In this document: in pieces, positions 10,405 through 51,891 of the stretch
Numbering within the stretch: position 1 is the stretch's first letter
Layout: every line of letters begins with the position of its first letter
Source: Microbacterium sp. M28
GTDB taxonomy: Bacteria; Actinomycetota; Actinomycetes; Actinomycetales; Microbacteriaceae
Length of the DNA stretch: 64,000 bases
Direction of reading: 5' to 3'
NCBI RefSeq assembly: GCF_025836995.1
Contig: NZ_CP107546.1
Location: 496,001-560,000, forward strand
Position numbers and translations under genes: made by a program
The notes under the pieces: model-generated
What the model saw: the letters and a program-made list of their open reading frames with translations, nothing else
Told to the model about the DNA's origin: nothing
Databases searched by the model: none

Positions 10405-10467
10405 ATGTCCAGTCTGCCCCCAAAACGGATGCGCGTGCACCTTCGCGGCGAAGTGGGGAGGGCTAAG

Positions 10468-11418
10468 GTGAAACGCGTGACTGAACGGCGCACCTACAGC
10501 TATCTCGGCCCTGCCGGCACCTTCACGGAGGCGGCTCTCGACCAGGTCGCCGAGGCCAGAGGACAGCACTGGCGACCGGTGCACAACGTCGGAGAGGCCC
10601 TCGCGGATGTGCTCGAGGGACGCAGTCACGCCGCGATGATCGCGATCGAGAACTCGATCGAGGGCGGCGTCTCGACGACGCAGGACGCCCTCGCCACCCT
10701 CCCCGGCCTGCGCATCATCGGCGAGTACCTCGTCAAGGTGAACTTCGTCCTCGTCGCTCCCCCCGGCACGAAGCTGGAGGACGTGCAGGTGATCGCCGCG
10801 CATCCGGTCGCGTACGCGCAGTGCCACGGGTGGCTGAGCGCGAATCTGCCGAGTCACTCGCACGTCCCCGCGGCCAGCAACGTGGCATCCGCGATCGGCG
10901 TGCTCGACGGGACCAGTCCGGCGCAGGCCGCGATCGCCGCCCCCGGCATCGTGCAGCACTACGACGTCGAGGTGCTGGCGTCCGAGATCGGCGACAACAC
11001 CCAGGCGGTCACCCGCTTCGTGCTCGTGACGCGGACGACGACGCCTCCTTCCCCGACCGGCGCCGACAAGACCTCGCTGATCGTGGAGCTGCCGCACGAT
11101 CACCCCGGATCGCTGCTGGAGATGCTCGAGCAGTTCTCCACCCGGGGCATCAACCTCTCGCTGATCGAGTCGCGTCCGATCGGCGATGAACTCGGCCGCT
11201 ACCGGTTCGTCATCGACGCCGACGGTCACGTGCAGGACGAGCGCATGGCCGACGCCCTGCTCGGCATCCGTCGGTTCAGTCCGCGCGTGGTGTTCCTCGG
11301 CTCGTATCCGCGCGCGGATCGGCAGATCGTGCAGTACCCGAACCGCTACGCCGACGACATCTTCGTCGAAGCCAGGGACTGGCTGCGCGGACTGCTCTCG
11401 GGCGAACCGGAGGCGTAG
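10468..11418 (+). CDS. pheA: Prephenate dehydratase
   Basis: 316 residues. The N-terminal catalytic domain starts [15 protein letters not shown]. It is followed by the dehydratase substrate segment and a C-terminal ACT domain with the allosteric ESRP motif ([10 protein letters not shown]). It converts prephenate to phenylpyruvate in phenylalanine synthesis, with feedback control expected through the ACT domain. There is no chorismate mutase domain, as in mycobacterial PheA. GTG 10468 was chosen because GTGGGGAGGG (10453-10462) sits at the right distance; GTG 10477 is possible but farther. Confidence 0.94.
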
Positions 11419-27150: not shown

Positions 27151-27182
27151 CACGCGCGGCGGTGCGTCCGGTCGGGGTGCAG

Positions 27183-27211
27183 CTGTTTTCTCAGGTGGTT
27201 TGGGATACCAT
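27183..27211 (+). promoter_or_regulatory. Predicted promoter of the small-RNA candidate
   Basis: CTGTTT (27183-27188) and TACCAT (27206-27211) are 17 bp apart. A start 7 bp after the -10 falls on 27218, exactly the first base of the outer RNA stem. Confidence 0.45.
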
Positions 27212-27217
27212 TGAGGT

Positions 27218-27366
27218 GACTCTCGGAACTGATTCGGTGTGCATGCCATCCCCAGTGGCGTCGTATTCAGCGTCCCCAGCGCTTCGACATTCACCGAACG
27301 AGAGTCCGAGGGCCCTTTCGAGTACTCCAGTCCCCAATGGACGACTCGAGAGGGCCCCACTTCTTT
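27218..27366 (+). ncRNA. Candidate small RNA with three C-rich loops
   Basis: The 227-bp gap between two genes folds convincingly. GACTCTCG (27218-27225) pairs with 27299-27306, and TTCGGTG (27233-27239) with 27292-27298, closing a two-hairpin core. Hairpin A is GCCA/TGGC (27245-27259) and hairpin B is AGCG/CGCT (27269-27283). Both have the identical loop TCCCCAG. A terminator hairpin (27310-27323 with 27344-27357, 13 of 14 paired) exposes a third TCCCCA in its loop and is followed by TTCTTT. C-rich loops are typical of sRNAs that pair with G-rich ribosome binding sites, for example actinobacterial 6C RNA. Identity with 6C RNA is not claimed. Confidence 0.65.
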
Positions 27367-27377
27367 AGACTGGGTCC

Positions 27378-27785
27378 ATGGCCCGAAAGAAGAGCGCGAA
27401 GAGCAAGCCCGCCCCCGAGGACTTCCGCTCCGAGGCACTGGCGCAGGCGCTCGAGAAGCAGGATGTCGCGGCCGTCGCGCTCGCGCTGCGTCACGGCACC
27501 ACGGTCGTCCCGCTCATCAAGCCTGGTGCCAGGGACAATCCGCTCGACAGTGGCGAGGTCTGGACGTACCGCGACCCGAAGAGCGGCGATGTCGCGCTGC
27601 TGCTGTTCAGCGATGCGAAGAACAAGCCGGCGAACCTGCCGCCCGGCGTGGGGATCTACTCGGCCGACTGGCTTCGGGCGTTCCTCACCAAGCACGCCGA
27701 CACGGTGACGACGGTGTTCCTCGACATCGCGGGGCCGCATCCGATGCAGGCGGAGCCGCAGGAGCTCCTCAAAGCGCTCTCGTAG
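27378..27785 (+). CDS. SseB-like conserved hypothetical protein
   Basis: 135 residues, soluble. A Lys/Ala-rich N-terminus precedes a compact domain with HGTTVVPLIKPGA, VALLLFSDAKNKP and TVFLDIAGPHPMQA. The spacing of strands resembles the SseB N-terminal domain. No catalytic residues stand out. The gene sits directly after the sRNA terminator and before a repeat region, with no evident operon partner. Confidence 0.6.
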   Translation: MARKKSAKSKPAPEDFRSEALAQALEKQDVAAVALALRHGTTVVPLIKPGARDNPLDSGEVWTYRDPKSGDVALLLFSDAKNKPANLPPGVGIYSADWLRAFLTKHADTVTTVFLDIAGPHPMQAEPQELLKALS

Positions 27786-44540: not shown

Positions 44541-46655
44541 ATGCCCACCATTCGCCGCTTCCACGCCGCCGGCACTGCCCTGCTCGTCGCGTTCCGCGAC
44601 CACGGACTGCCCGAAGTGCTGCACTGGGGAGAGGACGTCGGCGACGCATCCGCCGAGGCGCTCAGCGCACTCGACGCCACGAACGCACGGCAGATCTCGG
44701 CCAGCGCGCTCGACGTGGCGTGGCCGCTGACGATCCTGCCGACGGAGCGGGATGGATGGGAAGGGCGTCCGGCACTGTCGGGCGCGGCCTCCGGCGCGCC
44801 GCTGCACCCGGACTGGTCGGTCACGGACGTGGATGCCGACGAGCACGGGTTCTCGATCATGGCTTCGGCGGAAGGCATGACGCTGCACAGCTCGCTGCGG
44901 TTCGACGACGCGGGTGTGCTGCGCATCGATCACCGCGTGATCAACGACGATGACGTGCCACTGACCATCGCCGCGCTCGACGCGACGCTGCCGGTCGCGG
45001 CCCGCGCGCGGGAGCTGCTCGACTTCACCGGACGGTGGACGCGGGAGCGCTCGCCGCAGCGTCGTCCGATCGCGATGGGCACGCATCTGCGCGAGTCGCG
45101 GCGCGGCCGGACGGGGCACGACGCCCCGACGCTCGCTGTGGCGGGGACGCCGGGCTTCGGTGACCGCTCCGGTGAGGTCTGGGCCGTGCATCTCGCGTGG
45201 AGCGCGGATGCCGTCTACCGCACCGATCGGCTGCCGGAAGGGCGCAGCGTGCTGGGCGCGGGCGAGCTGCTGCGACCGGACGAGATCGTGCTCGCGCGCG
45301 GTGAGGCATTCGCGGCGCCGACGGCGGTGTTCGTGTGGAGCGACGCCGGACTCGACGGGCTCTCCGCGCGACTGCATCGGTCGCTGCGGGCGCGGTCCGC
45401 GCATCCTTCGGCTCCGCGTCCGGTGGTGCTGAACACCTGGGAAGCGGTCTACTTCGATCACACGCTCGAACCGCTGACCGCGCTCGCCGACGTGGCCGCC
45501 GAGGTCGGTGTCGAACGATTCGTGCTCGATGACGGCTGGTTCCTCGGACGCCGCAGCGACACTGCGGGGCTCGGCGATTGGCACGTCGACGGGACGGTCT
45601 GGCCGGATGGACTCCACCCGATCGTCGAGCACGTGCGCGCGCTCGGGATGGGATTCGGCCTGTGGGTCGAGCCGGAGATGGTCAGCCCGGACTCGGCTCT
45701 CGCGGCTGAGCATCCGGAATGGCTGCTCCGGATGCCGGGGCGGACCACCCGGTCGTGGCGCAACCAGTACGTGCTGGACGTCGCCCAGCCCGCGGTCGCG
45801 GACTACCTGCTGGAGCGGCTGGGGGCGCTGCTGACCGAGTACCCGATCGAGTTCCTGAAGTGGGATCAGAACCGGGACGTGCTGGAAGCGGTGCACGCCG
45901 GGCGCGCGGGGATCGATGCGCAGACCCGGGCCGTGTACGCGCTGCTGGATGAGCTGCGCCGCCGGCACCCGGGTGTCGAGATCGAATCCTGCTCCTCCGG
46001 AGGAGCTCGTGTCGACCTCGGCATCCTGGAGCACGCCGATCGGATCTGGGCATCCGACACGAACGACCCCCTCGAGCGCTCGCGCATCCAGCGCTGGACC
46101 GAGCTGCTGCTGCCACCCGAGCTGATCGGCAGCCACATCGGTCCGGCGACGGCCCACACGACGCAGCGGGCGACCGAGCTCCGGTTCCGGATCGCGACGA
46201 CGCTGTTCGCGCACGGGGGTATCGAGACCGACATCACCCATCTGAGCGCAGACGAACGAGCGGACGTGAAAGCGTGGATCGGCGAGTACAAGCGCCTGCG
46301 CGGTCTCATGCGCTCGGGTGAGCTCGTGCACGGCGACGGGGATGATGACGGACAGGTGCTGACGGGCGTGGTGTCGTCGGACCGCCGTCACGGACTGTTC
46401 CGGCTGACGCGCGAGGTGACGGGAGAGTGGGCGGTGCCGCCGGCACTGCGTCTGCCCGGACTCGACCCCCGGGTGGACTACTGCGTGCGGGTGGTCCCTG
46501 CGCTGTCGGCGAGGAAGTTCCTGGACGCGAAGCCGGTGCCGTGGATCGCGGAGGGGAGCTGCGAGCTTCCCGGATCGCTGCTCGGCGCGGTCGGTGTGCG
46601 GGTGCCGCTGCTGGCACCGGCATCCGCGCTCGTGCTCGAGGTCGTGGCGCTCTGA
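44541..46655 (+). CDS. GH36 alpha-galactosidase (second)
   Basis: 704 residues, the canonical GH36 length. YFDHTLEPL and FVLDDGWFLGRRSD open the barrel; nucleophile D442 is in FLKWDQNRD and acid/base D506 in WASDTNDP, after ESCSSGGARVD. It is cytoplasmic. Compared with the 41121 enzyme it has the standard KWDxN and SDxxD motifs, so the two paralogues may differ in substrate length or linkage context. ACGGAGG precedes the ATG at 44541. It has its own operator-controlled promoter. Confidence 0.93.
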   Translation: MPTIRRFHAAGTALLVAFRDHGLPEVLHWGEDVGDASAEALSALDATNARQISASALDVAWPLTILPTERDGWEGRPALSGAASGAPLHPDWSVTDVDADEHGFSIMASAEGMTLHSSLRFDDAGVLRIDHRVINDDDVPLTIAALDATLPVAARARELLDFTGRWTRERSPQRRPIAMGTHLRESRRGRTGHDAPTLAVAGTPGFGDRSGEVWAVHLAWSADAVYRTDRLPEGRSVLGAGELLRPDEIVLARGEAFAAPTAVFVWSDAGLDGLSARLHRSLRARSAHPSAPRPVVLNTWEAVYFDHTLEPLTALADVAAEVGVERFVLDDGWFLGRRSDTAGLGDWHVDGTVWPDGLHPIVEHVRALGMGFGLWVEPEMVSPDSALAAEHPEWLLRMPGRTTRSWRNQYVLDVAQPAVADYLLERLGALLTEYPIEFLKWDQNRDVLEAVHAGRAGIDAQTRAVYALLDELRRRHPGVEIESCSSGGARVDLGILEHADRIWASDTNDPLERSRIQRWTELLLPPELIGSHIGPATAHTTQRATELRFRIATTLFAHGGIETDITHLSADERADVKAWIGEYKRLRGLMRSGELVHGDGDDDGQVLTGVVSSDRRHGLFRLTREVTGEWAVPPALRLPGLDPRVDYCVRVVPALSARKFLDAKPVPWIAEGSCELPGSLLGAVGVRVPLLAPASALVLEVVAL

Positions 46656-51797: not shown

Positions 51798-51891
51798 GCC
51801 ACCCAGCGTAGAATCCGAGTACGACATCGCGACCGGGACGACCCGGTTCGTGGCATTCTTCCGGGGACGGCCCCGCCCGAAGGAGACAGCC

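Follow-up and report, generated by a model that had tools for sequence, protein, structure and literature searches.

An earlier note on this DNA had described, at positions 27218–27366 of the window (the whole 64,000-nucleotide stretch analysed here), a long-range stem in two parts, a UCCCCAG loop on each of two hairpins, and UCCCCA again in the loop of a terminator. It had read the repeated C-rich loops as antisense to G-rich ribosome-binding sites, which raises the question of whether this gap holds a small RNA and, if so, which messages it could recognise. We consider it likely that the element is a trans-acting sRNA, one of a multi-locus Microbacterium family, whose loops would pair with the leaders of exopolysaccharide genes. 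The family is very probably previously undescribed. No Rfam 15 family matches the sRNA at E ≤ 10 (27151–27400), and in the open-licence literature we found neither a published description of it nor any published sRNA of Microbacterium. The reading draws on what is legible in the DNA itself, namely RNA structure, conservation and promoter position, a target motif with its strand bias, and agreement between the bases that flank loops and sites.

Structure and promoter of the element

Every part of the RNA element (plus strand, about 149 nt) that the earlier note had described was found on sequence inspection at the coordinates in Table 1, and the computed fold agrees. The minimum free energy of the 149-nt strand is −68.0 kcal/mol, against −43.5 ± 3.9 for shuffled sequences (z = −6.3), and none of 200 dinucleotide shuffles folded as low. 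In each of the three apical loops CCCCA is unpaired with a computed probability of about 0.96–1.0, and hairpin 2 is lengthened by GUCG (27260–27263) facing CGAC (27285–27288). A cluster of three TCCCCA copies within 110 nt occurs only here in the 64-kb window, whichever strand is read.

The −10 box would place the putative start on the first stem base (27218), as the earlier note had also done. Most close relatives carry CTGACA 17 nt 5′ of the −10, from which the window strain deviates with CTGTTT. Across the family, TANNNT lies between −20 and −5 of the model start in 80 of the 82 members with enough upstream sequence (2.4% at random positions), and 9–14 nt before it in 79 of 82 copies. The terminator hairpin is conserved but without a clean U-tract, and was absent from the output of a simple terminator scan. 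The marks of a trans-acting sRNA, an own promoter, an own terminator and a conserved structure, are present as the promoter position, a terminator hairpin lacking a clean U-tract, and covariation. A weak model match on the minus strand (34.6 bits, 27310–27393) arises because the terminator hairpin is near-palindromic. Elsewhere in the window, a Guanidine-II (mini-ykkC) riboswitch was detected at 51832–51875 on the plus strand (40.3 bits, above the gathering score).

Downstream of the element lies a gene whose product has no Pfam or NCBIfam match and looks SseB-like by eye; it is probably leaderless, transcribed from its own −10.

Table 1. Features of the locus and 6C-like RNAs of the same genome. 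Positions are those of the window, except where the contig of the window's own genome (G000) is given.
Feature	Position	Strand	Remarks
−35-like CTGTTT, weak	27183–27188	+	17-nt spacer to the −10
−10 box TACCAT	27206–27211	+	Invariant among close relatives
P1a, 5′ strand of the long-range stem	27218–27225	+	Partner 27299–27306; both-side changes in 7/7 modelled pairs
P1b, 5′ strand of the second part of the stem	27233–27239	+	Partner 27292–27298; both-side changes in 5/5 modelled pairs
Hairpin 1, GCCA-(UCCCCAG)-UGGC	27245–27259	+	Loop 27249–27255; covariation-supported
Hairpin 2, AGCG-(UCCCCAG)-CGCU	27269–27283	+	Loop 27273–27279; covariation-supported
P1b and P1a, 3′ strands	27292–27306	+	P1b 27292–27298, P1a 27299–27306; fold and covariation
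Terminator hairpin, 14-bp stem	27310–27357	+	27310–27323 with 27344–27357; UCCCCA in loop at 27331–27336
Neighbouring 135-aa gene	27378–27785	+	Own −10 TAGACT; adjoins type A and type C sRNAs
6C-like RNA (L036)	G000:C1:808549–808625		34.5 bits, under the 47-bit cut-off
6C-like RNA (L037)	G000:C1:44839–44900		29.9 bits, under the 47-bit cut-off

Conservation and distribution of the family

As judged by comparison of sequences, 27218–27366 is part of a real RNA family, in which it is a type A member; it scores 142.8 bits against model R1. BLASTN of the gap against 149 genomes of the genus returned about 45 near full-length homologues, together with many matches to the terminator hairpin only, which proved to be diverged relatives when their loci were read. 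Trained on type A alone, R1 recovers types B–D at E-values of 1e-7 to 1e-14. The earlier note had suggested looking among relatives for compensatory changes, whose lack would have spoken against the structure; they occur in 34 of the 41 base pairs, whereas only 9–19 pairs show them when the partners are slid by 1–3 columns. Cells with changes on both sides number 172 in 44 sequences and 580 in 86, against 17–77 for slid partners (1–3 columns), and none of 500 shuffles reached the observed values, in alignments that were fitted to the structure and are thereby biased in its favour. The slide control, and the stems of six loci (L052, L053 and L405–L408) drawn by eye, are independent of the fine alignment.

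The family falls into at least four diverged types (A–D), in which the C-rich loops are kept on largely unrelated stem sequences. Common to all types are the long-range stem, a pair of hairpins whose loops are C-rich, and UCCCCAA in the loop of the terminator hairpin. The loop of hairpin 1 is constant across types although the stems differ, and the terminator loop is retained in G063 (L052) on a wholly different stem. Type A, the window's own form, often adjoins a homologue of the gene at 27378, and the diverged type C likewise adjoins a gene of this family. Type B lies 5′ of a 6C-like RNA and not beside that gene. Type D, with loops GUCCCCAA, lies 5′ of wcaJ and is divergent from it in G013, G025 and G031; genomes carrying type D have type C loops as well.

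With model R2, family members were detected in 25 of 39 Microbacterium genomes, often at two loci, and even the weak matches show the family architecture. In the window's own genome one locus was found, whereas relatives usually have two. A pattern independent of the covariance model (TCCCCA..HCCCCA..TCCCCA) matched about 40 times in the 39 genomes, against 10 for reversed controls, part of these matches being the complementary strand of G-rich leaders. The terminator-loop pattern occurred in 113 stretches of GTDB-220 contigs; among the 80 matches listed, nearly all are from Microbacterium and most carry model matches, while the Exiguobacterium and Prevotellaceae entries have none. A type C copy on a 3-kb Stenotrophomonas contig is probably contamination. 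Neither R1 in 200 Microbacteriaceae genomes nor R2 in 40 gave anything convincing outside the genus, the best matches being those in G183 (E = 0.005) and G188 (E = 0.03); since these searches score few candidates per genome, they may miss distant members. Within the searches made, the family appears to be confined to Microbacterium.

Candidate targets in exopolysaccharide leaders

As an example of a target, the earlier note had pointed to UGGGGA (10454–10459) before pheA. We reject this candidate, as the hexamer is unconserved and lies 5′ of a conserved −10-like TAAGGT/TAGGCT. Orthologous pheA starts have ...GTGACTGAACG in common, with TANNNT closely 5′ of it, and across the genus TANNNT stands just before the conserved GTG start (window 10454–10480). 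Given such a −10-like element just before the start, pheA of the genus looks leaderless. The broader proposal, that leaders containing UGGGGA could be targets, fared better: exopolysaccharide genes well away from the window have conserved G-rich leaders, whose complementary sites make antisense action on ribosome-binding sites the best reading of the C-rich loops.

In the 250 nt before wcaJ of 20 sRNA-positive genomes, TGGGGA is the commonest hexamer, seen 44 times against 3.6 expected (500 simulations, maximum 9); TCCCCA does not occur in the same stretches. Two or more sites are present in 16 of 20 sRNA-positive but 2 of 10 sRNA-negative genomes (P = 0.003), a contrast between genomes that are not phylogenetically independent, and not a clean one because most of the sRNA-negative comparators are wcaJ homologues of only 43–46% identity. 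Four sRNA-positive genomes (G008, G018, G032 and G037) have no hexamer at the wcaJ homologue examined. G010, G011 and G019 (L354, L357 and L353), in which no family member was detected, carry one to three UGGGGA in the wcaJ leader.

The wcaJ of G000 has three UGGGGA sites, two before and one within a 17-codon upstream ORF (MAHWGILRSF...). The stop of this ORF overlaps the wcaJ start as ATGA, an arrangement kept in G021 and G035. This upstream ORF (G000:C1:2823486–2823539 in G000) is conserved at 16–17 codons (M-x-H-W-G...), and one UGGGGA falls in its Trp-Gly codons. Besides UGGGGA, six wcaJ leaders (L324, L328, L331, L333, L334 and L335) share hairpins with GUGGGA loops (CCGAUGUGGGAAUCGG) and CCGAGGGGUCGG. 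This suggests that the wcaJ leaders are a family of longer, structured elements carrying multiple G-rich loops; the target leaders have no Rfam match.

A cytidylyltransferase-like gene (PF01467; G000:C1:2842626) carrying two copies of CUGGGGA emerged when the window's own genome was searched for CTGGGGA-N4-10-ATG. In seven type A relatives its leader reads ...AGCGGAUGGGGAUCCGCU..CUGGGGA..GAUCUGGGGAGAUC-AUG or a close variant, with UGGGGA in hairpin loops and at the ribosome-binding site alike. In four further species the leader sequence differs, and most of these retain GGGG hairpin loops. The gene was found in 13 of 25 sRNA-positive and 0 of 14 sRNA-negative genomes (P = 6e-4, uncorrected for relatedness and leaving out more distant homologues).

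The cytidylyltransferase gene is one end of the G000 exopolysaccharide cluster, which encodes a WcaJ-type sugar transferase (PF02397), Wzz, Wzx-like, Wzy-like and Alg14-like proteins, and glycosyltransferases. In a comparison spanning 124 kb, TGGGGA reaches 0.96/kb in this 19.7-kb cluster, against 0.32/kb in the flanking 40 kb and 0.27/kb in the window; close pairs number five, one and none, respectively. The cluster sites fall in the leaders of wcaJ, a Gfo/Idh/MocA oxidoreductase, a glycosyltransferase and the cytidylyltransferase, and the motif (C)UGGGGA is in tandem in the wcaJ, cytidylyltransferase and oxidoreductase leaders. Across the 39 genomes, the tandem pattern before ATG matched about 100 times, against 6 for the reversed control; a few of these come from the strand complementary to the sRNA itself, and such genome-wide target statistics are built on pattern searches and selected stretches. 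Conserved tandem UGGGGA was also observed 3′ of a GntR-type regulator gene (G000:C1:597574–597609, L329; G029:C1:890445–890479, L330), where no ORF is evident and the site could be a sponge or a leader.

The bases beside the motif vary with the sRNA type. Where the hairpin loops are UCCCCAG (type A genomes), C precedes UGGGGA at 25 of 26 leader sites, and where they are those of type D, U precedes it at 7 of 13 sites and C follows at 6 of 13 (P = 3e-5 and 0.003 for agreement of loops and sites, the sites not being independent). Predicted duplexes between hairpin loops and leader sites have energies of about −13 to −17 kcal/mol.

In the mechanism that we propose, the closed long-range stem would present the two hairpins and the terminator hairpin, each apical loop exposing (U)CCCCA. 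If the RNA is expressed, these loops would pair with (C)UGGGGA in the 5′ leaders of mRNAs for exopolysaccharide synthesis, both where the Shine-Dalgarno sequence lies and in hairpin loops further upstream. Pairing would most likely block the initiation of translation, so that repression rather than activation, and with it an exopolysaccharide phenotype, would be expected; at wcaJ, the block would run through the short upstream ORF. Three loops meeting two to five sites per leader could provide avidity and redundancy, as in LhrC, through contacts that would be redundant and possibly multivalent, either loop-loop or loop-Shine-Dalgarno. With moderate confidence, we extend this to a co-evolving loop code, in which the three-C-loop sRNA family and structured leaders with several matching G-rich loops and ribosome-binding sites would coordinate exopolysaccharide synthesis, some species having back-to-back sRNA and wcaJ genes and the flanks of loops and sites having changed together.

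Rival readings and known systems

Types A and C both stand directly 5′ of the same gene family, and the element could be a cis-acting attenuator or riboswitch of the gene at 27378 rather than a trans-acting sRNA. We disfavour this and judge it very unlikely: about 20 nt separate the end of a strong terminator hairpin from the gene, whose ATG has a −10 of its own beside it; types B and D are located elsewhere, the position of type B away from the gene that flanks A and C arguing for trans action; and in other genera the gene occurs without the RNA, none of 29 such loci giving better than E = 1. It is extremely improbable that the element is a diverged member of the Rfam 6C family (RF01066), with which the earlier note had proposed a scan. 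The 6C RNAs are actinobacterial, carry C-rich loops on a pair of hairpins and have G-rich ribosome-binding sites as targets (PMC10470900), but the 6C model finds no match in the window at the 47-bit gathering score and none on 27151–27400 at E ≤ 10, and better 6C candidates lie elsewhere in G000. The loops have four C, not the six or more of two 6C loops, and the element has a third loop as well as an enclosing stem. The 6C-like RNA at 44839 is preceded by a palindrome, TTGTCCCCCAAATGGGGGACAA, near a TAGGCT −10, and the same is seen in L039–L042.

A motif recurrent in many leaders could also be a protein-binding site, whether a DNA operator or a site for an RNA-binding protein, and as DNA, TGGGGA is TCCCCA on the opposite strand, its complementarity to the sRNA being then incidental. 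The strict orientation of the motif in wcaJ leaders (44 against 0), the position of the sRNA's UCCCCA in apical loops of covarying stems, and flanking bases that track the sRNA type make this quite unlikely. We also regard as unlikely that the G-rich sites are plain strong Shine-Dalgarno sequences and that the sRNA has unrelated targets or titrates something else. Since UGGGGA contains GGGGA, a usable Shine-Dalgarno core and, 5–12 nt before a start, a normal ribosome-binding site, part of the near-ATG enrichment could reflect ribosome binding, and tandem sites occur in some genomes although no sRNA was detected (e.g., G010 and G019). Many sites, however, occur in tandem, further upstream or within hairpin loops. 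A Shine-Dalgarno sequence would need neither tandem or distant copies (up to five) nor copies in hairpin loops, nor that the commonest hexamer be the exact complement, and the tandem sites cluster in the exopolysaccharide region within the 124 kb of G000 examined.

To our knowledge, few actinobacterial sRNAs have known targets. The trans-acting family that we favour is described by a covariance model and has diverged into four or more types; its promoter position is conserved, and the regulon predicted for it carries matching sites. Whether a C-loop sRNA coordinates a surface-polysaccharide pathway in high-GC Gram-positives can therefore be tested directly. Leaders with several sites suggest multivalent loop-loop recognition, and the flank agreement between loops and sites opens sRNA-target co-evolution to testing.

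The sRNA sX13 of Xanthomonas reportedly uses C-rich loops to recognise G-rich motifs in mRNAs, a mode of action like that proposed for the Microbacterium RNA. It is a conserved sRNA of a proteobacterium (PMC3771888). The 6C/B11 RNA of mycobacteria is likewise actinobacterial, and its two C-rich hairpin loops pair redundantly with G-tracts in 5′ UTRs, either loop repressing through such a tract (PMC10470900); unlike the Microbacterium RNA, it has a model of about 75 nt, at least six C per loop and no enclosing stem. RNAIII, RsaE, SprD and FsrA of Staphylococcus and Bacillus (listed in PMC4132741) share the UCCC loop motif as a Shine-Dalgarno seed, but come from low-GC Gram-positives and differ in architecture and targets. 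The multicopy LhrC1–5 of Listeria monocytogenes have three redundant UCCC sites, one of them in the terminator loop, that pair with the G-rich Shine-Dalgarno sequence of lapB (PMC4132741). No such family gave an Rfam 15 match at E ≤ 10. The Microbacterium RNA resembles LhrC in its three redundant C-rich seeds, the terminator loop included, but belongs to a different phylum, has a closed apical loop for each of the three sites, with a long-range stem enclosing the structure, and has as predicted targets exopolysaccharide leaders with several matching sites each.
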